DNA of 64,000 bases from Leptolyngbya subtilissima AS-A7 (GTDB lineage Bacteria > Cyanobacteriota > Cyanobacteriia > Phormidesmidales > Phormidesmidaceae), in NCBI RefSeq assembly GCF_039962255.1, contig NZ_JAMPKY010000005.1:1-64000 (forward strand). The letters run 5' to 3'. Both the position numbers and the translations under genes were made by a program. Positions 42,351 through 54,626 of this stretch are shown here, piece after piece. The stretch's first letter is position 1. The number at the start of each line of letters is the position of its first letter. The notes beneath the pieces are model-generated. The model was not told where the DNA came from. It ran no database searches and worked only from the letters and a program-made list of their open reading frames with translations.

Positions 42351-45300
42351 CTACTGAGCGTTTTGCCGGGCGTAGTCAAGATTGGGCTGATAGTCAACCG
42401 CCTTCTGCTGGGCAGTGGCGTAGTTGGGGTCAGAGGCCGGAACTCGTTGCATGAGAGCAATGGCTTGGGCCCAAGCGTCGGCTACCGCTTGCCACTGGGC
42501 TGGGGTACTGGCGGTTTGGGCTTGGTTGGCTGCGGTTTGGGCTGCATTAACCGCTTGCCTAAACAGCTCATCTTCGGGCACAGCAGCCGGGTCAACCGGA
42601 GGTGTAGCAGGCTCGGTGATTGCGGGGGCTCCCCCTGGACTAGGCTCCCGCAAGCGACTGAGCACTCCGTAGAGCAGCAGGCCACCTAGAGCTAAAGCCC
42701 CCACCAATCCTAAAATCAGGCGCGTGGGCAAGCCAGACCTTCCGCCTGACCGGCGGACACTGCCGTCGTCATTAAACTGGTCTGGGGTGAGGGCTACGTG
42801 GGTAGAGGGGTCGGAACCAAACTCCTGAATGAAGTCGTCGGTAGCGTCGGGTTCGTCATTCGTTAAGACCACCCCATTGCGGTCTTGGATGAAGCCGTTG
42901 CTATCTAGGGAACTGTCGCTGAAGGCTCCATCATCAAAACCTTCATCATCAAAACCTGTGTTCCCGAAGCCTTCATCGGCAAAGCCCTCGGTGCCGAAAT
43001 CGGTCTCAAAGCCTTCATCGCTTAACCCTGCGGACTCGAAGCCGGGTGCCTCAAACTCGTCGTTGCCAAACTCAACGGGCTCAAAGGCTGGATCATCTGC
43101 GATATCATCGCTAAGCAGGCCAGCAGCCGGTATAGCCCCAGCAGAATAATCCTCCGGCTGTTCTAGAAAGGCAGCGTCGACGTCGCCAAGTTCGTTGGTC
43201 ATAGCGAGGTCAGGCATAAAGTCGCCCTCGACTGTTTGGTCCAACTCCATGGTCGAGAAGGGCATATCGGCGTCGGCTTCAAAGCCCACCTCGTAGGGCT
43301 CAGCTGCAAAAGGATTTGAAGTGATGTGAGGATCCTCAGCTTGAGCATCGAAGGTCAGTCCAGGATCAAAGCCGCTCTCCGGTTCAGCCCCAAAGTCGGC
43401 GGGAGAATCTAGGACAAGGTTAGGGTCGAAACTGCCGTCTTCTACTGCCCAGGGTGGAGCATCGGCTGCGGAGAAGCCCAAGTCGCCCTCTTCGGGTACA
43501 AAGGCATCTACGCCGAGGGGCTTTAGAACCAGATCGTTAGGACCGGCTTCTAGATCAAAATCGCTTGAGAAAGGAGTGTCTATGGCTTGATCACTCAGCT
43601 CGCCCTCTGACAAGTCAAGGTCAACGGCGGCAAAGTCAGCGGTGCCCAAATCGCCGTAACTGCCTAGATCGTCGTAAGTGCCCAGATCGGTATCAGAGTC
43701 GAGGGGCAGTTCGCCCTCGGCCAAGCCGGTAGTGCCGAGATCGTCGTAAGTACCTAGATCGTCGTAGGTGCCTAGATCTGTGTCAGAGTCAATGGTCAGT
43801 TCGCCCTCAATCAAGCCAGCGGTCCCTAAATCGTCGTAAGTACCTAGATCGTCGTAGGCGCCCAGATCAGTGTCAGAGTCGAGGGTGAGATCAGGCTCGT
43901 CTGCGCTCCAGTCGCTGCCTGCGAAGGCAGCGGGTTCTGTGAGGTCTAGATCGGTAGCAGCGCCTAAATCCTCAAACGCTAACTCTTCTGGGGTCAACAG
44001 TTCAGGGGGTAGAGGCTCTAAACCCGCTTCTAGGTTTGAAGTGGTGCTGTCGGTGCCTAGATCGAGGTCAGGAAAGGCATCGACATCAAGTGTGCTGCCC
44101 TCAACCATCGGTGTTTCTGAATCAAATCCTTCATCTAACCCTAGGTCCAAGCCGGTGTCGAACTCGGTAGCTGCTAAAGGATCTAATTCAGGAAAATCCA
44201 GATCGTTGGGACTGTTCTGTCCTAAATCCAAGCCGGTGTCGAACTCAGTGGCCGCTAGAGGATCTGGTTCTGCCTCAAGAAAATCTAGGTCGCTGGAGCT
44301 GTCCTCTAAATTGGTGAAATCGTCGGAGAGGACGGCGTCGCTACTCGGGTCTTCGTCAAAGTCGACTAGGTCATCCATGCCAGACAAGTCATCGGCCCAA
44401 GGGGGGGCAGAACTGTCTACTGGGCCTGCGGCGGGAGCGATGCCCGTGTCTGGGCTGGCGTCGCTACTGCTCCAAAGGTCATCTAGATCAATATCGACGT
44501 CGGGGGCTGTGGGGGGAGCCGCGGGGGTGTTGAGATCGAAGTCGAAGTCGTCGGCTGCGATCGCAGCCTCAGCCTGATCCCCAACCGTCTCACTCAGTTC
44601 TGGGCCATTCTCAAAGTCGAGACCAAAGTCTGCAATCTCCTCAGTGCCACTGTCGGCGGCCCATTGCTGAGCTTCTAAATCTAAAGCGGCCTGATCGGCA
44701 GCGGCAAAATCTAGGTCTAGGTCGCTAGTGCTGGTGCTTGGGTCAAAGTCGAGCTCATTGCCCGCCCCAGTGGGCGCATCATCAAGACCAAGATCCAGAT
44801 CTAACGCATCAGCAGTAATGGGTTCTTCGCCGCCTAGATCAAAATCCAGGTCAGTGTCAGCCTTGACAGTGGGTGATTGGTCTGGGCCTAGATCCAGGTC
44901 TAAATCATCGTCATTGAAGCCAAGATCCAAATCCAATGCATTAGTAGTAGCGGATTCTTCGCTACCTAGATCAAAATCTAGACCGGTGTTAGCCCCGGCA
45001 GCGGGTGATGGGTCTAAGCCTAGATCTAGGTCCAAATCATCGTCATTCAGGCCAAGATCCAGATCTAATGCATCAGCAGTGATAGGGTCTTCGCCGTCTA
45101 GATCAAAATCCAGGTCAGTGTCAGCCCCAACGGTGGGCGATGGGTCTGGGCCTAGATCTAGGTCCAACTCATCGACAGGCGCCCCAGTGACTTCGTCGCC
45201 CATGCCTAAATCGAGGTCAAAATCGCTTGCAGAAGCATCTCCCTTAGGAGCATCAATGAAGTCTAGGTCAAGGCCTAGGTTATCTGGGGCGGTGGCGGGT

Positions 45301-46235
45301 GCCTCCTCAAGGCCTAGGTCAAAGTCCAGCTCAGTGTCGTTGGGTACGGTGCTCGTTGAGTCTTTGGTAAAGCTCAGGTCAGGGGCGGGGGCATCGGCCA
45401 AGGCCAGGTCGAGATCAAAATCAGTGGCAGACTCGGCAGCGGCAGGCTCTGAGAACTCTAGGTCAAAATCTAGATCGGTGGCTCCAGCATCGCTCGGCTC
45501 TTCACCAAGACCCAGATCGAAATCAAGATCGCTGGCATTGGTAGAGGTGTCGGTGAACTCTAGATTGAAATCGCTTGCGTCGGCAGAGGTGTCGGTGAAT
45601 TCTAGGCCAAAATCATCGGTGGCCCCCAGATCGGCACCGGCTTCGGAGAGGCTGGTGTCGGTCAGATCGAGGCCAAAGTCGCTGGCGCTATTGTCGGTAA
45701 AGCTCAGGTCAAAGTCGGCCGGGACATCGAGATCGAGATCGCTAGAGCCATCGGTAAACCCTAAATCGAGGTCGGCACCGCCAAAGTCATCGCCTAGGGA
45801 CGCGTCAAAATCGCCTAGCTGATCGAGGTCGAGGTCGGCACCATTGGTGCTATCGAGGTCGAACCCGAGGTCGAGGTCATCACTGGTCGGAGTGGGCGCT
45901 AGACCTAGGTCAAAGTCCAGATCGCTAACCGGAGCGTCTTGCAGCACCAGGTTTTCGCTCCAGGCGCTGGTGTCAGCCCCTAGTTGTTTGCCGCTGACGG
46001 TCAGCTGTTGAATGGTGGCTAGCTCCAGCCCGGTAATGCCCTTTTTGACATAGGCGACCAGATCAGCCTGGTTGGGAATTTGGGCAGACTCTAGGTTCAC
46101 CTGGAGGGTGCTGTCGTGTTGCACCACGTGGGCAGTGATACCTTGGGCCTCCAGGTGGCGATTCATCAGAGCCGCGATCGCCTCTGGGTCACCCTGACGG
46201 GCCAGTTGCAGAACAGTGGGGGGCGTATTAGACAT
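42351..46235 (-). CDS. Giant Asp/Leu-rich acidic single-span membrane protein (1294 residues)
   Basis: Residues about 1-75 form a compact helical/strand domain (LARQGDPEAIAALMNRHLEAQGITAHV) that I believe recurs in cyanobacterial proteins. Residues about 100-1170 are extremely acidic low-complexity sequence dominated by DLDFDLG, DLDLDLGL, and DLGTYDD repeats. A membrane span (about 1172-1195, RLILGLVGALALGGLLLYGV) follows a basic RRSGGRSGLPTR stretch, then a 99-residue helical tail (TPAQWQAVADAWAQAIALMQ). The basic stretch before the span suggests that the acidic part is cytoplasmic and the tail extracytoplasmic. Function is unknown. Start ATG 46235. The opposite strand has long open frames over the repeats, but they are shadows. 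Confidence 0.85.
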   Translation of the reverse strand: MSNTPPTVLQLARQGDPEAIAALMNRHLEAQGITAHVVQHDSTLQVNLESAQIPNQADLVAYVKKGITGLELATIQQLTVSGKQLGADTSAWSENLVLQDAPVSDLDFDLGLAPTPTSDDLDLGFDLDSTNGADLDLDQLGDFDASLGDDFGGADLDLGFTDGSSDLDLDVPADFDLSFTDNSASDFGLDLTDTSLSEAGADLGATDDFGLEFTDTSADASDFNLEFTDTSTNASDLDFDLGLGEEPSDAGATDLDFDLEFSEPAAAESATDFDLDLALADAPAPDLSFTKDSTSTVPNDTELDFDLGLEEAPATAPDNLGLDLDFIDAPKGDASASDFDLDLGMGDEVTGAPVDELDLDLGPDPSPTVGADTDLDFDLDGEDPITADALDLDLGLNDDDLDLDLGLDPSPAAGANTGLDFDLGSEESATTNALDLDLGFNDDDLDLDLGPDQSPTVKADTDLDFDLGGEEPITADALDLDLGLDDAPTGAGNELDFDPSTSTSDLDLDFAAADQAALDLEAQQWAADSGTEEIADFGLDFENGPELSETVGDQAEAAIAADDFDFDLNTPAAPPTAPDVDIDLDDLWSSSDASPDTGIAPAAGPVDSSAPPWADDLSGMDDLVDFDEDPSSDAVLSDDFTNLEDSSSDLDFLEAEPDPLAATEFDTGLDLGQNSPNDLDFPELDPLAATEFDTGLDLGLDEGFDSETPMVEGSTLDVDAFPDLDLGTDSTTSNLEAGLEPLPPELLTPEELAFEDLGAATDLDLTEPAAFAGSDWSADEPDLTLDSDTDLGAYDDLGTYDDLGTAGLIEGELTIDSDTDLGTYDDLGTYDDLGTTGLAEGELPLDSDTDLGTYDDLGSYGDLGTADFAAVDLDLSEGELSDQAIDTPFSSDFDLEAGPNDLVLKPLGVDAFVPEEGDLGFSAADAPPWAVEDGSFDPNLVLDSPADFGAEPESGFDPGLTFDAQAEDPHITSNPFAAEPYEVGFEADADMPFSTMELDQTVEGDFMPDLAMTNELGDVDAAFLEQPEDYSAGAIPAAGLLSDDIADDPAFEPVEFGNDEFEAPGFESAGLSDEGFETDFGTEGFADEGFGNTGFDDEGFDDGAFSDSSLDSNGFIQDRNGVVLTNDEPDATDDFIQEFGSDPSTHVALTPDQFNDDGSVRRSGGRSGLPTRLILGLVGALALGGLLLYGVLSRLREPSPGGAPAITEPATPPVDPAAVPEDELFRQAVNAAQTAANQAQTASTPAQWQAVADAWAQAIALMQRVPASDPNYATAQQKAVDYQPNLDYARQNAQ
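43686..43885 (-). repeat. 90-bp (30-residue) tandem repeats in the giant acidic protein
   Basis: Units encoding SDTDLGTYDDLGTYDDLGT and following residues recur with a 90-bp period, seen as GTGTCAGAGTCGAGG-type blocks near 43686, 43776 and 43866 on the plus strand. Two full and one partial unit are visible. Confidence 0.8.
44803..45198 (-). repeat. 132-bp (44-residue) tandem repeats in the giant acidic protein
   Basis: The unit that starts near AACGCATCAGCAGTAATGGG (44803) recurs at 44935 and 45067, exactly 132 bp apart. Each encodes a version of ALDLDLGLNDDDLDLDLGLD, then PSPxxGAxTDLDFDLGxEE. Copies differ at scattered positions. Confidence 0.85.
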
Positions 46236-46364
46236 AGGGGTCTATTGAATTCGATGAATTCAGCGCACAGGCCGGAGAATTCCCTATAGTATGCCCGCGG
46301 TGGCTGATATTGACACAATCATTGGCTCACAGGGCGTAAACCTGAGGTAATGTCGTCCCAAATG

Positions 46365-49208
46365 TTACGGATTTTGTTGATTTAGCTCCTGTAAAGCGCG
46401 CTCTAACTGCTGCTGGGCTTCGCCGTAGCGCTGCCAATCGCCCTGCTGAAGAGCCTGCTGGCCGCTTTGGTACGATTCCAGCGCCGACTGCACCAGATCA
46501 GACACGGTGCTAGGTGGTGCCGGTTCGGTGCCGGGATCGACGGGAGCGGGCGGTGGGGCAACGGCATCGCCAAAGATGGCGTCTAGGCTTTGGTCGAGGG
46601 TTTCTCGCATCACCACGCGATCGTTGTAGGCAACAATCACTCGGCGCAGCTCGGGCAGTTCGCCCTGGTCGGCCCGTAGGTAAATGGGCTGCACGTAGAG
46701 CAACGACTGCTCGACGGGGATCACCAGCAGGGTGCCGCGAATTACCCCCGAGCCCTGCTGGCTCCAGAGGGTGAGCTGCTCAGAGATTTCTGGAGTTTGG
46801 CTAATGCGGGCCTCAACCTGGGTGGGGCCAAACACTAGCTCCTGCTTCGGAAATTCGTAGAGCAGCAGCCGACCGTAGTTGTCGCCGTCGGAGCCGCCTG
46901 CCATCCAGGCGATCATGTTGTCGCGGTTGGCCGGGGTAAAGGGGAGAATTTGCATAAATTCCTCTCCCTCTAGCTGAGGCAGCTTCATAATCACGTAGTA
47001 GGGCTCCATGGGTTCCACGGCGTCCTCTTCCCCGTGTTCTGGAAACCGCCAGAGGTCTTCACGGTTGTAGAAGACCTCTGGGTTTTCCATGTGGTAGGCC
47101 CGGTACATCTGGGCCTGCACCGTGAAAATGTCCAGGGGGTAGCGCAGGTGCTCGCGATAGTTGGCGGGCAGCTCTTCGATGGGTTTGAAGAGGTCGGGAA
47201 AGATCTGGCTGTAGGTAGCCAGCAGCGGGTCGTAGCGATCGCGCGCATAAAACTCCAGGCTGCCGTCGTAGGCGTCGATAAAGACCTTGACGGCATCGCG
47301 AATGTAGTTGACGCCGTTGCGCATCAGGGGATTGGTGTTCTCCACCAGCGAGACCATGTCGGTGCGGCGGTTGAGGGGCTCGGAATAGGGGTAGCGATCG
47401 CTGCTGGTGTAGCCATCCAAAACCCACTTGATCCGCCCGTCGATCACCGCCGGGTAGGGATCGCTGTCGTAGGTGAGAAAGGGGGCGACGTGGCGCACCC
47501 GATCAGTAATCAGCCGGTGGTAGTGAATCCGAGTTTCAGGGCTGAAATAGTTGGAGATCAGCACCCGCACGTTGCCCAGATCGAAGGCGTAGGCCAGCCG
47601 CCGCAGCCACGAATTGAGCGGCACGCCGCCCGCCCCGGTGTAGCGGTAAGACGCGTTGGTGTCGCCTTGGGGATAGTCAAACTCGTCGGTGTTGGCCCCG
47701 GTAAAGATGTAATTGCGGGTGCTTTCGCCGTAGTAAAGGCGGGGCTGGTCGAGGGGCAAATCGACGGTGCTGCTGGGGGGCACATTGCGAATAAAGAAAT
47801 CAGGCAGCCCGTTGGGGGTCACCTGGTTGACCGGGCTCATCACAATCCCAAAGCCGTGGGTAAATTTGAGCTGGCGGTTGATCCAGTTTTGGGCCTCGGG
47901 GGGTAATTGCTCGACCGGCAGCTCGCGAGCCGAAATGGTCACCTGGCGGTAGTCGCCGTTGAGGGTGTAGCGGTCAACATCCACATCCTCAAAGTTGTAG
48001 TAGAGGCGAATTTCTTGCAGCTGCTTGTAGGTGCTGAGCAGCGGAGCGTAATCCCACAGGCGGATGTTGCCGATGGTGGGCTCGTTGGCGTCGAGCACCG
48101 CACGATCGAGGCTGTTGTTGGCGGGGAAGGGCTCTGACACCACGCTGGTAAGGTTGTAGGCCGCGCGGGTAAAGGCAATATTGTGCTCGATGTAGGGGCG
48201 CTCCATGGTGAGCTCGTTGGGCTCAACCACAAAGTTTTGCTGAAACCAGGGATACATGCCGTTAACCAGCACCAGTACGCCCAGGTAGATCACAATGCCA
48301 AAAATTGGCAGCGAAAAGCCGCTACGCCCCAGAGCAATCAAAAACAGCGCCGCCACCGCCAGGGTGACAAACCCCATCAGCCAAAAAGACTGGAGCCGAG
48401 CATGGACATCGGTGTAGCCCGCGCCGAAAATAACGCCGCTGTCAGAGTAGAGCAGCGAGAAGCGGTCGAGCCAAAAGCCCACCGCCAGCAGGGCCGCGAT
48501 CGCTGCTAGCAGCAGACACAGGTGAGCTTTAGCTTCCCCCGTGAGAAAGTATTTCCAACCGCGCTCGGGGCGCACCTCACCCTTGAGGGCATACACGGCG
48601 CTGGCCAGCAGCAGCGACCACACCAGCAGGCCCAGCAGATTGTCTTGCAGCCCCTGCCACAGGGGCAGCTTAAACATATAAAAGCTGATATCGCGCTGAA
48701 AGATGGGGTCAGGGGTGCCAAACTCGGTAGGGTTAAGAAATTGCAGCACGGTCTGCCAAGCCGAAGCCGCCCGCAGCGCCACCCCTAGCGACAGCAAAAA
48801 AACCAGCCCTACCACCCCCAAATGGGTGAAGCGTTCGATCTGCTGGCGCTGAACTGGGTTGCTGTAGCGGCTCAAAAATCGGTAGACGCGATCGCGGGTT
48901 AGCTGCCGCGCGATCTGGTAGTTGGCCCACAGCACTCCGCCGTAAACGACAAACGACCCCACTCCTAGGGCTAGCTGCCACTTGATGCGTACCCAAAACA
49001 CCGATGCGTAACCTACCGACTCAAACCACCATGACTCGGTGAGCAGATGCACTAAGCTGCTCGAAAAGACCAGCAGCAGAGTGATTGCCACTAGCCAGGG
49101 CAGCAGTCGACGGGCCTTGAAGGATTTAGCAGGGGAATAGGTCACAGGTATGGCAGGTAGGGGCGAAGTGCATTCGGGCAAAACCTCTAAACATAGCGCC
49201 TGAAGCAC
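46365..49208 (-). CDS. UPF0182 family large membrane protein
   Basis: This 947-residue protein has about seven membrane spans in the first 330 residues (LLPWLVAITLLLVFSSSLV, VGLVFLLSLGVALRA, LLGLLVWSLLLASAVYAL and others). A large extracytoplasmic domain follows (about 340-870; PYIEHNIAFTRAAYNL, GYTSSDRYPYSEP, VLISNYFSPETRI). The C-terminal 60 residues are Pro-rich then helical (SALESYQSGQQALQQGDWQ), like a short TPR-type hairpin. The UPF0182 family is widespread in actinobacteria and cyanobacteria with no known function. A GTG at 49208 opens the frame; GTG 49145 is another possible start. It is divergent from the tubulin-like gene across 277 bp. Confidence 0.93.
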   Translation of the reverse strand: MLQALCLEVLPECTSPLPAIPVTYSPAKSFKARRLLPWLVAITLLLVFSSSLVHLLTESWWFESVGYASVFWVRIKWQLALGVGSFVVYGGVLWANYQIARQLTRDRVYRFLSRYSNPVQRQQIERFTHLGVVGLVFLLSLGVALRAASAWQTVLQFLNPTEFGTPDPIFQRDISFYMFKLPLWQGLQDNLLGLLVWSLLLASAVYALKGEVRPERGWKYFLTGEAKAHLCLLLAAIAALLAVGFWLDRFSLLYSDSGVIFGAGYTDVHARLQSFWLMGFVTLAVAALFLIALGRSGFSLPIFGIVIYLGVLVLVNGMYPWFQQNFVVEPNELTMERPYIEHNIAFTRAAYNLTSVVSEPFPANNSLDRAVLDANEPTIGNIRLWDYAPLLSTYKQLQEIRLYYNFEDVDVDRYTLNGDYRQVTISARELPVEQLPPEAQNWINRQLKFTHGFGIVMSPVNQVTPNGLPDFFIRNVPPSSTVDLPLDQPRLYYGESTRNYIFTGANTDEFDYPQGDTNASYRYTGAGGVPLNSWLRRLAYAFDLGNVRVLISNYFSPETRIHYHRLITDRVRHVAPFLTYDSDPYPAVIDGRIKWVLDGYTSSDRYPYSEPLNRRTDMVSLVENTNPLMRNGVNYIRDAVKVFIDAYDGSLEFYARDRYDPLLATYSQIFPDLFKPIEELPANYREHLRYPLDIFTVQAQMYRAYHMENPEVFYNREDLWRFPEHGEEDAVEPMEPYYVIMKLPQLEGEEFMQILPFTPANRDNMIAWMAGGSDGDNYGRLLLYEFPKQELVFGPTQVEARISQTPEISEQLTLWSQQGSGVIRGTLLVIPVEQSLLYVQPIYLRADQGELPELRRVIVAYNDRVVMRETLDQSLDAIFGDAVAPPPAPVDPGTEPAPPSTVSDLVQSALESYQSGQQALQQGDWQRYGEAQQQLERALQELNQQNP

Positions 49209-49485: not shown

Positions 49486-52400
49486 ATGAGCGAATACACA
49501 GGCATGACCCCTACCGTCATCATTGGCGTGGGGGGCACTGGCAAAGAGATTTTGATCAAAATTCGCCGCATGATCGTGGAGCAGTATGGCTCCCTCGACG
49601 CCCTGCCAATCGTCTCGTTTTTGCACATTGACACCGAGCAAAACGCTAAAGTTTCCGAAGCCCAAACAGTCTTGAAGCAAGATATTTCCCTGCGACCCAT
49701 CGAGCAGGTGTGGGCCAAGGTCGAAGATGCCAAGGCCATTCTCAACAAGCTGTCGGCCTACCAATATTTAGACGAGTGGTTCCCCAGCGAGCTCAAAGGC
49801 ACCGACTCAATTTTGTCTGGAGCAGGGCAAATTCGCGCCCTGGGGCGGTTTGCCTTTAGCCTCAACTACCCCCTGATCAAGGACTACTTCACCAAGGCCA
49901 AGGGGCGCATCGTCGGCCATGAGAAATTCATGCTCGATCGCTGGAAGGTGCAGCTCGACAAGGGCATCAACATCTTTGTGGTCTGCTCGCTCTCCGGCGG
50001 CACTGGCTCCGGCATGGTGATGGATCTGGCCTACAACCTGCGCGACTGGGTGCCGGTGTCAGAATTACCCCAGACCAGTGCATTCCTGGTGCTGCCAGGG
50101 GCCTTTTCGGGATTGGGCGATCGCGTCATCGCCAACGCCTACGCCGCCCTCATGGAGCTGAACCACTACAGCCGCGGCGACACCCGCTTTGACGCTCAGT
50201 ACAGCGACAGCCAGAGCGATCGCATCACCAGTCAGAGCGGCCTCGATGTGCCCTTCAACTTCACCTACCTGGTGGGCAACAGCAACGACAAAGTCACCTT
50301 CCCCACCCTGGGCGATGTGCTGGAAATGGTGGCCCAGAACGTGTTTCTCGACTTTAGCTCCGGCTTCAGTCAGTACAAAAAGCTGGTGCGCGACAACGTT
50401 CGCAAGCACTGGGCCAGCCCTGACGCCTTGGGCTACCCGCAAAACTTCATGAGCTTTGGCCTCTCCAGCATTCAGTTTCCGGTCGAGCGGGTGCTAAACG
50501 CCTGCTCGGCCCGCCTGGCCGCCAAGCTAGTGGACTGGTGGAGCAACCCTACCCCTGCCCCAGCGGCGATGTCCGACCTGATTCGCACCGAGATTCTCCC
50601 CGGTCTATTTCTGGCCGAATCGGAGCACGACCACCAGGTGATCGACAGCATCAGCATGGGCGACAACAAAAAGCCCTACGCCAAGGAAGTCGCCGACTGG
50701 GTAGCCGGGGTGCGCAAGCGCCGCAACGACCTGAATATTCCCTTTGAAAACCTGCAGCGGTTTATCTCTAACGAGCAGGAAAAATATTCTCCCCACTTCA
50801 ACGACACCGGCACCGATCCCAAGCGCTGGAGCGACTACTTTCAAAAAATGTGGGACAACCTCAGCTGGCTGATCCCCGAAAAGCGCAAGGAGCTGCGGGC
50901 GGCGGTCTACCTGATGGTGGAAGATCGTTTCCGGGGGCCGAAGTTCACCCGTCAATTCTTAGAAGTGCTGATTGAGGTGTTTGCCGACTTTCGCAGCAAG
51001 TTCGACCAAGACCGACAGAAATACTGGCTACCCCGCGAGCGATCGGCCCAAAACGCCCTGCAAACCCTGCTAAAGCAGATCGACGACCACGCCAAGCAGA
51101 TGATGATGCTCAACCGCAAGAAAGTCATCGAAGACGACTTTCAAGGCATTATGCAGGCCCTAGAGCAGATCTACGTTTCTAAAGTCGAGGTCAAAGCCCG
51201 CACTCTGGGGGTGATGCTGCTCGACGGCCTGCGCGAAGAAATTGACCAGCTCTTGGTCGACCTCACTGCCTTTGAGACGGTGCTAAACAACGTCCAGGTC
51301 GAGCTGAAGGATAAGGAGCGCGTCTATACCCGCGAAACCGGCGGCCTGACGGTCAACGGCATTCTGCTCTACGACGAAAAGGAAATCGACGCCGCCTACC
51401 GCAAAACCGTCGCCGACCAGGAAGAAACCCTCTGCCAAACCCTCTCCCAGCAGGTGCTCGAAGAACTGCGGGTGCGCCTATTTGACCTCTACCCCTACGA
51501 CGCCCTCAAGACCAAAGACCTCTACGAGCGGCTGCTGGGTCAAGCGATGGATGTGTTTCGCCGCCGCAGCCAGCTCGACATTTCCACCGCCCGCAAGTTT
51601 CTGGAGCAGTACCCCACCGTCGAGATGCAGGAGGCCCAGATCAAAACCACCTTTGAGAAATCGGAAGCCTTTTTGCGCCTTAGCCAGGAGCAAAAGAAGC
51701 TGGGCTGGGACGACAAGCTAGAGAAGTACCAAAAACTGGTCGGCATCCAGGGCGGCAGCAAACCCACCGATCCGGCGGTCTCGGCCCTGCTGCCGATGAT
51801 TCGCAAAACCAGCACCGTCACCGACAAAGAAATTCGCCCCCTCAACGACCCCTACCACATCTACTTTGTGCAGGAGACCGGGGCCTTCCCCCTACGGCTA
51901 ATTGAGGGCATGGAGCGGATGCGATCGCTCTACCGCGCCGTCAGCCAAGCTGACCACAACCCCCTGCACACTCACCAAGACTATCGCCAGTTTGGCGACG
52001 TCATGCCCGAAACCAGCAACGAGCGCCAGGCCCGCTACAACCTGATGCTGGCCAACGCCCTGGGTCTGGTGCGCCGCGAAGACAATCGCGTCACCGGCTT
52101 TGCTGAGGTCAAATTCACCTATCGCGACAAGCTCACCGGCTTCGACAAAACTGAGGTCATGGGCGCCACCTGGGAAGAGGCGGAAGACTTTTTGCTCACC
52201 GACCAAAACCGTCGCCTGGCCGAAACCTTAGACAATGCCATTCGAGCGATCGGTGAAGAAGCCGCTACTAAACCCCAGAAACAAGCCCTTTACACCCAGG
52301 TGATGACCTACCTGCAACAGCAGGAGCAAACAATTCAGGGCGGCTCCGACAGCGACGACTACAAGCGCATCCAAGCCGCCATCTCCAACTTCGTCACTAC

Positions 52401-52845
52401 CCACCGCCTCTTCATCCCCTCGGATGCCCCCGCTACCCCCTCACCCACTACCCCATCACCCGTCACTACATCACCGTCTCCCGCGCCGCCGCCTCCCGCC
52501 CTTGACTCCGAGAACTTAGTCAAATACGCCAAGCTAGTCGAGACCTGCTACCGGCGCGGCAATCCCTCGCCCACGGAGCTAGAACTGCTGGAAAAATTCC
52601 GGGTAAAGTACAGGGTCTCGGTGGCCGATGCCAATGCGATCGCCGCCCAATACCAGCCCCAAAACACCATCGAGCAAGCCGCAGCCGAATACGGGTTGAT
52701 GTTCCGCGCCTTCCTCGACAACGACGGCGAAGTTGACCTAGAAGAGCAGGCCCAACTGCTCGACCTCCAAGAAGAACTGGGTCTCACCAACGAGCAGGTT
52801 GCCACCATCGAAGACAACGTGCGCGCTGAAATGAACAGACCGTAG
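49486..52845 (+). CDS. Tubulin/FtsZ-like GTPase (Tubulin_2 type), 1119 residues
   Basis: The N-terminal 350 residues look like a divergent tubulin-superfamily GTPase. A first-loop nucleotide motif IIGVGGTGKE (12-21) parallels the FtsZ T1 loop, SGAGQIRALGR (111-121) parallels T3, and SLSGGTGSGM (168-177) corresponds to the tubulin signature GGGTGTG. The middle (about 370-950) is long, charged and helical with coiled-coil character (QTLLKQIDDHAKQMMMLNRKKVIEDD spans about 525-550). A Pro/Ser/Thr linker (about 978-1007) leads to two short helical repeats (GNPSPTELELLEKFRVKYR and DNDGEVDLEEQAQLLDLQE), the second with an EF-hand-like acidic loop. This matches the large non-canonical FtsZ-like families proposed to remodel membranes, but no function is proven. 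The adjacent gene is a membrane-anchored binding protein. Confidence 0.85.
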   Translation: MSEYTGMTPTVIIGVGGTGKEILIKIRRMIVEQYGSLDALPIVSFLHIDTEQNAKVSEAQTVLKQDISLRPIEQVWAKVEDAKAILNKLSAYQYLDEWFPSELKGTDSILSGAGQIRALGRFAFSLNYPLIKDYFTKAKGRIVGHEKFMLDRWKVQLDKGINIFVVCSLSGGTGSGMVMDLAYNLRDWVPVSELPQTSAFLVLPGAFSGLGDRVIANAYAALMELNHYSRGDTRFDAQYSDSQSDRITSQSGLDVPFNFTYLVGNSNDKVTFPTLGDVLEMVAQNVFLDFSSGFSQYKKLVRDNVRKHWASPDALGYPQNFMSFGLSSIQFPVERVLNACSARLAAKLVDWWSNPTPAPAAMSDLIRTEILPGLFLAESEHDHQVIDSISMGDNKKPYAKEVADWVAGVRKRRNDLNIPFENLQRFISNEQEKYSPHFNDTGTDPKRWSDYFQKMWDNLSWLIPEKRKELRAAVYLMVEDRFRGPKFTRQFLEVLIEVFADFRSKFDQDRQKYWLPRERSAQNALQTLLKQIDDHAKQMMMLNRKKVIEDDFQGIMQALEQIYVSKVEVKARTLGVMLLDGLREEIDQLLVDLTAFETVLNNVQVELKDKERVYTRETGGLTVNGILLYDEKEIDAAYRKTVADQEETLCQTLSQQVLEELRVRLFDLYPYDALKTKDLYERLLGQAMDVFRRRSQLDISTARKFLEQYPTVEMQEAQIKTTFEKSEAFLRLSQEQKKLGWDDKLEKYQKLVGIQGGSKPTDPAVSALLPMIRKTSTVTDKEIRPLNDPYHIYFVQETGAFPLRLIEGMERMRSLYRAVSQADHNPLHTHQDYRQFGDVMPETSNERQARYNLMLANALGLVRREDNRVTGFAEVKFTYRDKLTGFDKTEVMGATWEEAEDFLLTDQNRRLAETLDNAIRAIGEEAATKPQKQALYTQVMTYLQQQEQTIQGGSDSDDYKRIQAAISNFVTTHRLFIPSDAPATPSPTTPSPVTTSPSPAPPPPALDSENLVKYAKLVETCYRRGNPSPTELELLEKFRVKYRVSVADANAIAAQYQPQNTIEQAAAEYGLMFRAFLDNDGEVDLEEQAQLLDLQEELGLTNEQVATIEDNVRAEMNRP

Positions 52846-52849
52846 GCAG

Positions 52850-53010
52850 AAAGTTTTGAGTTTTGAATGCTTAGTTTTGAGTTCTTGGCATGCTGTAATC
52901 CTAGGTTGGATGCAGTGCCAGCGTAACAACGCTTATAGGGATTATTGGGTTCCACGCCGTTTCACCCAACCTACCCGACTACTTCAACTCAAAACTTAAA
53001 ATTCAGAACT
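52850..53010. repeat. Repeat-rich spacer between the GTPase and sensor genes (MITE/REP-like)
   Basis: The spacer contains outer inverted segments GTTTTGAGTT and AACTCAAAAC (near 52870 and 52985), and inner TAGGTTGG (near 52902) facing CCAACCTA (near 52968). The inner end has a hairpin TTGGGT-N13-ACCCAA. Sequences of the form TTGGGTTCC...CACCCAACCTAC are a recurring type of cyanobacterial intergenic repeat, so this looks like a small non-autonomous element or REP cluster inserted between the two genes. Confidence 0.5.
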
Positions 53011-53054
53011 CCTCCTACCACCCATCCACTCCCTAACCCATCCACCCATTCGCC

Positions 53055-54626
53055 ATGACCGACAGCTTCAACCACGTCACCTGCCCCAAATGCGGCTACG
53101 AAGAAAACACCACCACGGCCCAGAAGTGCGAAATCTGCGGCCAACCTTTGAAAAAGAGCAAGTCTATTGCTCCCCTCATCGCCGGGGTTGGGGCGGTTAT
53201 CTTTCTAGCAGCGCTGGGCTTCACAGGATACAACGCCTTTGTGCGCAAAGATGCGCCGCAGGCTCCGGTTGCGGTGCCGACTACCCCCGCAGCCCCCGCA
53301 GATCCCGCCGCCGCTGACTCTGGCACAACCTCTACTGCTGCTACCCCGACGACCACCCTAGGCCAGCCCGCTAATGTGGCTAATGCGCTGAGCTGGGGCG
53401 ATCGCATCCTCTTTACCGATACCTCTAATGCCGATATGCAGGCGGGGGCTGCTGCCTACGCCTCGGGTGACTATGCCACGGCCGCTGCACGCTTCGAGGC
53501 GGCCCGCAACGCTGTTCGCAACGACCCCGAAGCATTGATCTACCTCAACAATGCTCGGATTGGGGCTAATCCTGCCTTGGGCATCGCTGCGGTGGTGCCC
53601 ATTGGCGATAGCCCCAACACCGCCCGCGAGCTGCTGCGGGGGGTAGCCCAAGCCCAAGATGAGGCGATCAAGGCCGGCACCCCCGTGAAGGTGCTGATTG
53701 CTAACGACCAGAACAATGCCGGTCAGGCTGCCGCGATCGCCAACGCTCTAGTTCAAGACCCCGATGTTGTCGGCGTCATCGGCCACGGCACCAGCACTAC
53801 CACCTTGGCGGCCGCGCCCGTTTACCAACAAGGGCAGCTGCCGATGATCTCTCCCACCAGCACCACTACAGAGCTGACCACAGTGCCCAAAGAGGGCGGC
53901 AATTTTGTGTTTCGGGTGATTCCCAGTGATCAGTTCACGGGCACCACCCTGGCCCGCCACATGCTCACCCTGGGCAAGAGCAAACCCATCGTTTACTACA
54001 ACTCCCAAAGCTCCTACAGCAAGTCGCTGCAAGATGCGTTCTCCACCACCCTAGGCCTAGAAGGGGGACAGGTGGTCAAACTGGTTGATCTGTCCCAGGG
54101 CAATCCAACGACGGAGCTGCAGGGCAGTGGGGCCGATGCCGTGGTGCTGCTGCCCGACTCGGCCACCTTTGATGCGGCGATCGCCGTCGCCCAGCTCAAC
54201 AATGGCCAGCTGCCGGTGCTAGCTGGCGATGCTTTCTACCGCATTGATGCCCTGGAAAAGGGCGGGGCTAGCCTGACGGGCACCGTAGTCACCGTCCCCT
54301 GGCATCCACTCAAATCGGCCCCACCTTTTGCCCAGACCGCCTCTGGCCTCTGGGGCGGCGATGTTAACTGGCGCACGGCCCTCAGCTACGACGCGTTTCA
54401 GGTCTTGAGTTCAGCCCGCACTGTAGGAAACGTGGCTCCCGACAGCGGTACCTCAGGGCGAGCTGCGCTCGGTCAGGCTTTGGCCACCCAAGGGTTTTCT
54501 GCCAATGGATCAACAGGAACAATTAACTTTTTGCCGTCGGGCGATCGCAACACCACCGTCCTGCTAGTCGAGGTTAAACCCGGTACCCGCTCGGGCACCG
54601 GCTTCGACTTCGTGCCTCTGCCGTAA
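53055..54626 (+). CDS. Zinc-ribbon / single-span / periplasmic ABC-type substrate-binding protein
   Basis: The protein has 523 residues. A four-cysteine zinc ribbon (Cys10, Cys13, Cys25, Cys28; CPKCG and CEICG) is followed by KKSKS and one membrane span (about 39-62, APLIAGVGAVIFLAALGFTGYNAF). An Ala/Pro/Thr linker (about 68-105), a short TPR-like helical segment (SGDYATAAARFEAARNAVR) and a branched-amino-acid-type periplasmic binding domain (about 175-523; AAVVPIGDSPNTARELLRG, DVVGVIGHGTSTTTLAAAPVY, PIVYYNSQSSYSKSLQDAF) follow. The layout puts the zinc ribbon in the cytoplasm and the binding domain outside. No permease or ATPase gene is near, so it is likely a receptor, not a transport component. 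It is 209 bp downstream of the tubulin-like gene. Confidence 0.85.
   Translation: MTDSFNHVTCPKCGYEENTTTAQKCEICGQPLKKSKSIAPLIAGVGAVIFLAALGFTGYNAFVRKDAPQAPVAVPTTPAAPADPAAADSGTTSTAATPTTTLGQPANVANALSWGDRILFTDTSNADMQAGAAAYASGDYATAAARFEAARNAVRNDPEALIYLNNARIGANPALGIAAVVPIGDSPNTARELLRGVAQAQDEAIKAGTPVKVLIANDQNNAGQAAAIANALVQDPDVVGVIGHGTSTTTLAAAPVYQQGQLPMISPTSTTTELTTVPKEGGNFVFRVIPSDQFTGTTLARHMLTLGKSKPIVYYNSQSSYSKSLQDAFSTTLGLEGGQVVKLVDLSQGNPTTELQGSGADAVVLLPDSATFDAAIAVAQLNNGQLPVLAGDAFYRIDALEKGGASLTGTVVTVPWHPLKSAPPFAQTASGLWGGDVNWRTALSYDAFQVLSSARTVGNVAPDSGTSGRAALGQALATQGFSANGSTGTINFLPSGDRNTTVLLVEVKPGTRSGTGFDFVPLP

Follow-up and report, generated by a model that had tools for sequence, protein, structure and literature searches.

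Why is a tubulin-like GTPase of a cyanobacterium encoded next to what resembles a solute receptor? We addressed this question for a locus of Leptolyngbya subtilissima AS-A7 within a stretch of 64,000 nucleotides (contig NZ_JAMPKY010000005.1, positions 1 to 64,000, here referred to as the window). A sequence-only reading of the window had pointed to two adjacent genes on the same strand, and both open reading frames (ORFs) were found as described (Table 1). The first encodes a GTPase of the FtsZl1 family. The second encodes a partner with a zinc ribbon, one membrane span and a type I binding domain, an architecture that was read correctly from the letters. Both belong to a real and conserved system in cyanobacteria, in which the finger and the span, not the ligand domain, are the constant part that tracks the GTPase.

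Gene order was surveyed in about 60 loci from whole genomes and in 80 named loci. The window-type FtsZl1 proteins (about 62-99% identity) are here called clade A1, and a sister clade with about 30-37% identity to the window protein is called A2. In A1 the FtsZl1 gene is followed by the receptor gene, in several loci after a gap of 4-33 bp. The usual order in A2 is receptor, a membrane protein of ~300 residues with a von Willebrand A (VWA) domain, and FtsZl1. A receptor gene on the same strand within 5 kb was present in 14 of the 20 A1 loci and in 36 of the 56 A2 loci; together with the matching genome sets described below, this bears out the expected linkage. Since the linkage is conserved over the phylum, a chance pairing of the two genes is excluded. 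The VWA gene was found at 37/56 A2 loci and at none of the 20 A1 loci, the window included (for the A2 protein of locus L046, the match to VWA_3 was 2.6e-4). Binding protein, VWA protein and FtsZl1 stand in a row in Arthrospira (L282) and likewise in many other genera.

Stronger support than this linkage was given by the co-occurrence of the finger/span module with the matching FtsZl1 clade. One set of 386 cyanobacterial genomes was searched with FtsZl1 and with each finger type, where an A1 FtsZl1 was called above 1600 bits and a four-cysteine (C4) finger with span above 60 bits (the next genome scored 37.6). An A1 FtsZl1 was present in four genomes (G000, G064, G085 and G241), and the C4 module in exactly the same four. 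The A2 FtsZl1 occurred in 23 genomes, and the C-H-C-C finger in all of these and in one more. Among 59 relatives, A1 FtsZl1 and the C4 module shared the same 23 genomes (in G294 FtsZl1 is a fragment at a contig end), and nine species of the same genus as well as all other genera lacked both. The pair was present in 19 and absent in 9 Nodosilinea, and in genera holding both states (e.g. g16, g36, g48, g4, g17 and g23) finger and GTPase go together. Furthermore, co-occurrence outlasts linkage: the genes lie 2.1 Mb apart in G307 and about 0.33 Mb in G318, and in G085, G241 and Microcystis (G095/G235) the receptor genes have no FtsZl1 beside them.

The A1 partners are alike in their first 60 residues, with invariant cysteines of the CPKCG and CEIC type, and vary in the remainder. 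By itself the zinc ribbon scores under the Pfam cut-off, but none of its four cysteines varies among the relatives. Outer domains behind the C4 finger comprised Peripla_BP_6 (window), PBP_like_2 (L084, L117, L169, L215 and L218), an NMT1-like domain with OmpA (L214 and L220) and WD40 (L170, and L172 by sequence), the genes of L169 and L170 being unlinked to FtsZl1. The A2 finger is of the C-H-C-C type (W-x-C...H...C-x2-C) and was joined to Peripla_BP_6, PBP_like_2 (L237), a phosphonate-binding domain (L279 and L195) or a Ppx-GppA domain (L276). By class, these outer domains range from amino-acid-type (Peripla_BP_6), phosphate-type (PBP_like_2) and phosphonate-type binders to NMT1 with OmpA, Ppx-like and WD40 forms. 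On the FtsZl1 tree 10 changes of outer-domain type were needed, the placement of some long branches being unsure. A binding domain without the finger was found in many genomes without A1/A2 FtsZl1, and it is because of this wide occurrence that finger and span can be named as the part which follows the GTPase.

Several of these proteins have unusual compositions. The C4 ribbon and span precede a WD40 propeller, for which an extracytoplasmic position is predicted, in two genomes of a Gloeomargarita-like branch (L170:7644-8801 and L172:7544-8680), in both cases unlinked to FtsZl1. In L195:4-1641 the C-H-C-C finger, the span and the phosphonate-binding domain lead into the beginning of a domain resembling staphylococcal nuclease, and L276:3427-4815 carries its Ppx/GppA-like domain (actin fold) in the outer position. 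The binding domain itself was also considered as the conserved partner and was rejected, being common without A1/A2 FtsZl1, then fingerless, and replaced by other domains.

By its sequence the window GTPase is a member of the already known FtsZl1/Tubulin_2 family, which was described by Makarova and Koonin in 2010 (PMC2875224). The Tubulin_2 profile PF13809 matched the 1119-residue protein with 315.9 bits (curated Pfam cut-off 27), and the N-terminal FtsZ-like domain, the T1 and T4 loops, the long coiled coil and the helical C-terminal part of the family (PMC2875224) were all present, in line with the superfamily assignment made at first sight. That canonical FtsZ is a different protein was confirmed as well. 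The true FtsZ of this genome has its own gene, which lies on a different contig, and the window protein reached 17.1 bits with PF00091 (cut-off 33) and had no FtsZ_C match. An NCBIfam search of the GTPase returned sub-threshold noise only. The organism is a cyanobacterium of the Nodosilinea type, and GTPases 97% identical to that of the window were found in Phormidium tenue FACHB-1052 and in Nodosilinea strains.

The sequence-only reading had staked its case on a tubulin fold within the first 350 residues. An AlphaFold2 model built on 47 homologues (mean pLDDT 79) had CetZ as its top Foldseek match (2.5e-4), and VIA-align gave a Z of 16.8 for CetZ and of 14-15 for many tubulins. A sequence search of the PDB found no relative of the GTPase, the fold being reached through the predicted model only; the model supports a tubulin fold of the core beyond the level of motifs. 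Compared with CetZ and tubulin, whose fold its GTPase core is predicted to share, the protein has a coiled-coil insertion of ~390 residues, an extra C-terminal domain and no recognised T7 loop. Many tubulin alignments span model residues 7-840 against tubulin residues 1-436. Because they extend to 840, and because an almost entirely helical part (362 to ~740) is followed by an alpha/beta module (745-895), this module may, tentatively, correspond to the second (activation) domain of tubulin, displaced by the coiled-coil insertion. The 2010 analysis did not find this domain in FtsZl1 (PMC2875224). The C termini also differ between the clades: many A2 proteins (L034, L037, L055, L069 and L073) end in a zinc ribbon of their own (NCG...CxxCG), its place being taken in A1 by an unnamed helical domain.

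In the partner, Ser247, Thr270 and Tyr321 align to what we take to be the pocket places in the numbering of the Leu/Ile/Val-binding protein, and Tyr321 is kept in 31/32 relatives. The ligand of the window protein is probably an amino acid or a similar small molecule; in A1 generally an amino acid is the most plausible ligand, and in A2 other ligands are more plausible. The type I fold and the pocket Ser/Thr/Tyr are shared with HAAT-type substrate-binding proteins (LivJ/LivK; 3td9, 3hut and 4q6b). In contrast to these, the window protein is predicted to be anchored in the membrane behind a cytoplasmic zinc ribbon and a TPR-like stalk, and importer genes do not adjoin. As already noticed in the sequence-only reading, inspection of the ORFs at 42-61.6 kb revealed no transporter permease or ATPase.

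A binding protein beside FtsZl1 has been discussed before. During review of the 2010 paper, a referee drew attention to the branched-chain amino-acid binding protein of Arthrospira as a neighbour of FtsZl1 and proposed a role in transport or signalling; according to the authors' reply, genes of this kind are confined to one organism or a few close ones, and their involvement is not unequivocal (PMC2875224). Because Arthrospira and many other genera keep the arrangement, this objection is removed for cyanobacteria. The membrane remodelling proposed for FtsZl1 was disputed by a referee who preferred transport or signalling (PMC2875224). The dispute hung on whether the binding-protein neighbours are conserved, and they are so as a class set by the zinc finger, not by the ligand domain. 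VWA and OmpA partners, known from the family (PMC2875224), occur also in the relatives analyzed here. The window clade differs from the published FtsZl1 operons in having no VWA, kinase or GTPase genes in the operon (PMC2875224); the VWA operon is a frequent association of FtsZl1, and a protein can belong to the family without it. The zinc-finger/one-span receptors, the two finger types and the exchangeable outer domains are undescribed in the main text of that paper (PMC2875224). In the open-access literature we found no description of zinc-finger receptors and no paper giving FtsZl1 a tested function. The claim that a receptor link had not been described is to be narrowed: the GTPase family and the Arthrospira neighbour were known, and no account of the finger receptors was found. 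The present data name a specific partner for the FtsZl1 family in cyanobacteria and candidate ligand classes.

Overall, the locus is best explained by a dedicated two-protein system of FtsZl1 and a membrane receptor or anchor, with the outer domain sensing and the finger docking, which we consider probable. The cytoplasmic zinc finger would dock FtsZl1 at the inner membrane, and the outer domain would sense the envelope or periplasm and supply the signal. With finger and span as a constant plug, exchange of the outer domain could couple the same GTPase to different inputs in different cyanobacteria. Binding of a ligand might cluster or re-orient the receptor, and this change might localise, nucleate or release FtsZl1 assemblies on the membrane; in A2 the VWA membrane protein would be a third partner. 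From fold, gene order, co-occurrence and sensor exchange we infer a functional partnership of FtsZl1 and the finger protein with high confidence, a direct contact of the finger with FtsZl1 as rather likely, and control of FtsZl1 assembly by ligands only tentatively. The proposed signal from the envelope to the GTPase holds in part: the layout fits a receptor, but the constant part is finger and span, and the ligand domain is often replaced. More speculative, and less likely than not, is a class of transmembrane receptors whose cytoplasmic zinc-finger plug directly regulates a tubulin-type GTPase in response to extracellular ligands, with exchangeable inputs and without a kinase or transcription factor. 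If true, this would be a bacterial receptor acting straight on a tubulin-like protein. Our results suggest that outside signals steer a bacterial protein of cytoskeleton type, possibly through a new kind of receptor-to-cytoskeleton link.

Several points weigh against the two-protein system proposed here. Conservation across the 47 homologues revealed no invariant resembling the T7 motif NxDxx(D/E) past the core helix (333-354). Clade A1 is without the VWA gene found beside the A2 genes, and the A2 VWA protein had no match in the window genome. The additional genome with a C-H-C-C protein, G056, lacks an A2 FtsZl1 and has a distant FtsZl1 only. The Fisher tests of co-occurrence (1e-9 for A1 and 4e-36 for A2) are uncorrected for common descent. 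Finally, Ser247 is replaced by Asp in 18/32 relatives, so that ligands probably differ or are absent in some of them.

The main rival, which we regard as unlikely, is a static anchor: the zinc-finger protein would only tether FtsZl1 to membrane and cell wall, as ZipA and SepF do for FtsZ, and the binding folds would be spacers or contacts to envelope proteins. ZipA has one membrane span. Like FtsA, ZipA and SepF, the partner would bring a cytoplasmic GTPase of the tubulin superfamily to the inner membrane. The likeness is one of layout. In the partner only a tiny zinc finger is predicted to face the cytoplasm, and most of the protein would be an extracytoplasmic binding fold. No diffusible ligand is needed for the two A1 partners that end in the peptidoglycan-binding OmpA domain (L214 and L220) or for the C4 type bearing WD40, and two fingers of G187 carry helical or low-complexity outer parts only. 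However, solute-binding folds, of several types unrelated to one another, make up the majority of the outer domains, and the window protein keeps pocket residues that would be superfluous in a mere spacer.

Two further explanations are less likely than the static anchor. A diversifying immune sensor in a conflict or defence module would agree with the patchy presence within genera, as in Nodosilinea, with the exchangeable outer domains and with the type I modification-type gene behind FtsZl1 in L123. Published conflict systems include one of two genes, located at the membrane, whose variable position can hold PBP domains (system 4, PMC7159879; compared by its description). We consider this very unlikely, since PADLOC gave no match, the pair is without an effector enzyme and usually has one copy per genome, and FtsZl1 diverges little within the genus (91-99%). 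Least credible is the idea that the partner is the orphaned substrate-binding subunit of an ABC importer for amino acids and lies beside FtsZl1 by accident: its Peripla_BP_6 domain and its best relatives in the PDB are indeed of importer type, but the cytoplasmic-type zinc ribbon and uncleaved internal span in place of a signal peptide, the recurrence of this N terminus on outer domains that are unrelated, the exact co-occurrence with FtsZl1, the fingerless state of the domain in genomes without A1/A2 FtsZl1 and the missing importer genes all speak against it.

Table 1. Features of the FtsZl1/partner locus (positions in the window)
Feature	Position	Strand	Basis
FtsZl1 (Tubulin_2 family) GTPase, 1119 aa	49486..52845	+	ORF; PF13809 E=5e-94; 70 full-length cyanobacterial homologues
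Tubulin_2 domain, residues 11-350, Rossmann-type GTPase core	49516..50535	+	PF13809 match; model; CetZ/tubulin Z 14-17
T1-like nucleotide loop GVGGTGKE, residues 14-21	49525..49548	+	G16, G17, T18, G19 and E21 invariant, 47 sequences
T4-like phosphate loop SLSGGTGSGM, residues 168-177	49987..50016	+	S168 and G171-M177 invariant, 47 sequences
Long helical/coiled-coil part, residues ~362-740	50569..51705	+	model helices 450-479, 484-537, 544-618 and others, pLDDT mostly >85
Alpha/beta module, residues ~745-895	51718..52170	+	strand/helix order in model; invariant E797, F801, L803, R804
C-terminal helical domain, residues 1008-1115, after Pro-rich linker	52507..52830	+	model
Intergenic gap, 209 bp, nested inverted repeats	52846..53054		arms 52858-52883/52986-53011 and 52902-52912/52963-52973
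Zinc-ribbon/one-span/TPR-like/type I binding protein, 523 aa, receptor or anchor	53055..54626	+	ORF, Pfam, model
C4 zinc ribbon CPKC-x11-CEIC, residues 10-28, predicted cytoplasmic	53082..53138	+	CPKC 10-13, CEIC 25-28
Single membrane span, residues 39-62, KKSK before span (N terminus inside)	53169..53240	+	model helix 39-62
Three TPR-like helices, residues 126-169	53430..53561	+	model; TPR_11 match in homologue L158
Type I periplasmic-binding fold, residues 175-521	53577..54617	+	Peripla_BP_6 E=1.6e-24; PDB relatives 3td9/3hut/4q6b

The gap between the two window genes contains an outer repeat with arms of 26 nt (85%) and an inner 11-nt pair around TGGGTTCCACGCCGTTTCACCCA, and resembles a small mobile element. 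No terminator-like site was found inside the 209 bp, and a scan for operon promoters and terminators was uninformative. Extra genes between or after FtsZl1 and receptor were present in L123, L209, L210 and L119, and the spot may attract insertions. In L123 the methylase resembling type I modification enzymes is accompanied by a specificity-like gene. FtsZl1 is split by a frameshift or stop in L213, L225, G312, G301 and G251; losses may be frequent, or the split genes may reflect sequencing errors.

Other cyanobacterial FtsZl1 clades have other partners, such as a small OmpA/FtsL_2-like membrane protein (L039) and a VWA protein of 610 residues (L058). Divergently orientated upstream of the window pair (42351-49208, minus strand) are the genes of a UPF0182 membrane protein and of an acidic, repeat-rich protein of 1294 residues with one span. 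Both keep their place in most Nodosilinea relatives, not outside the genus.

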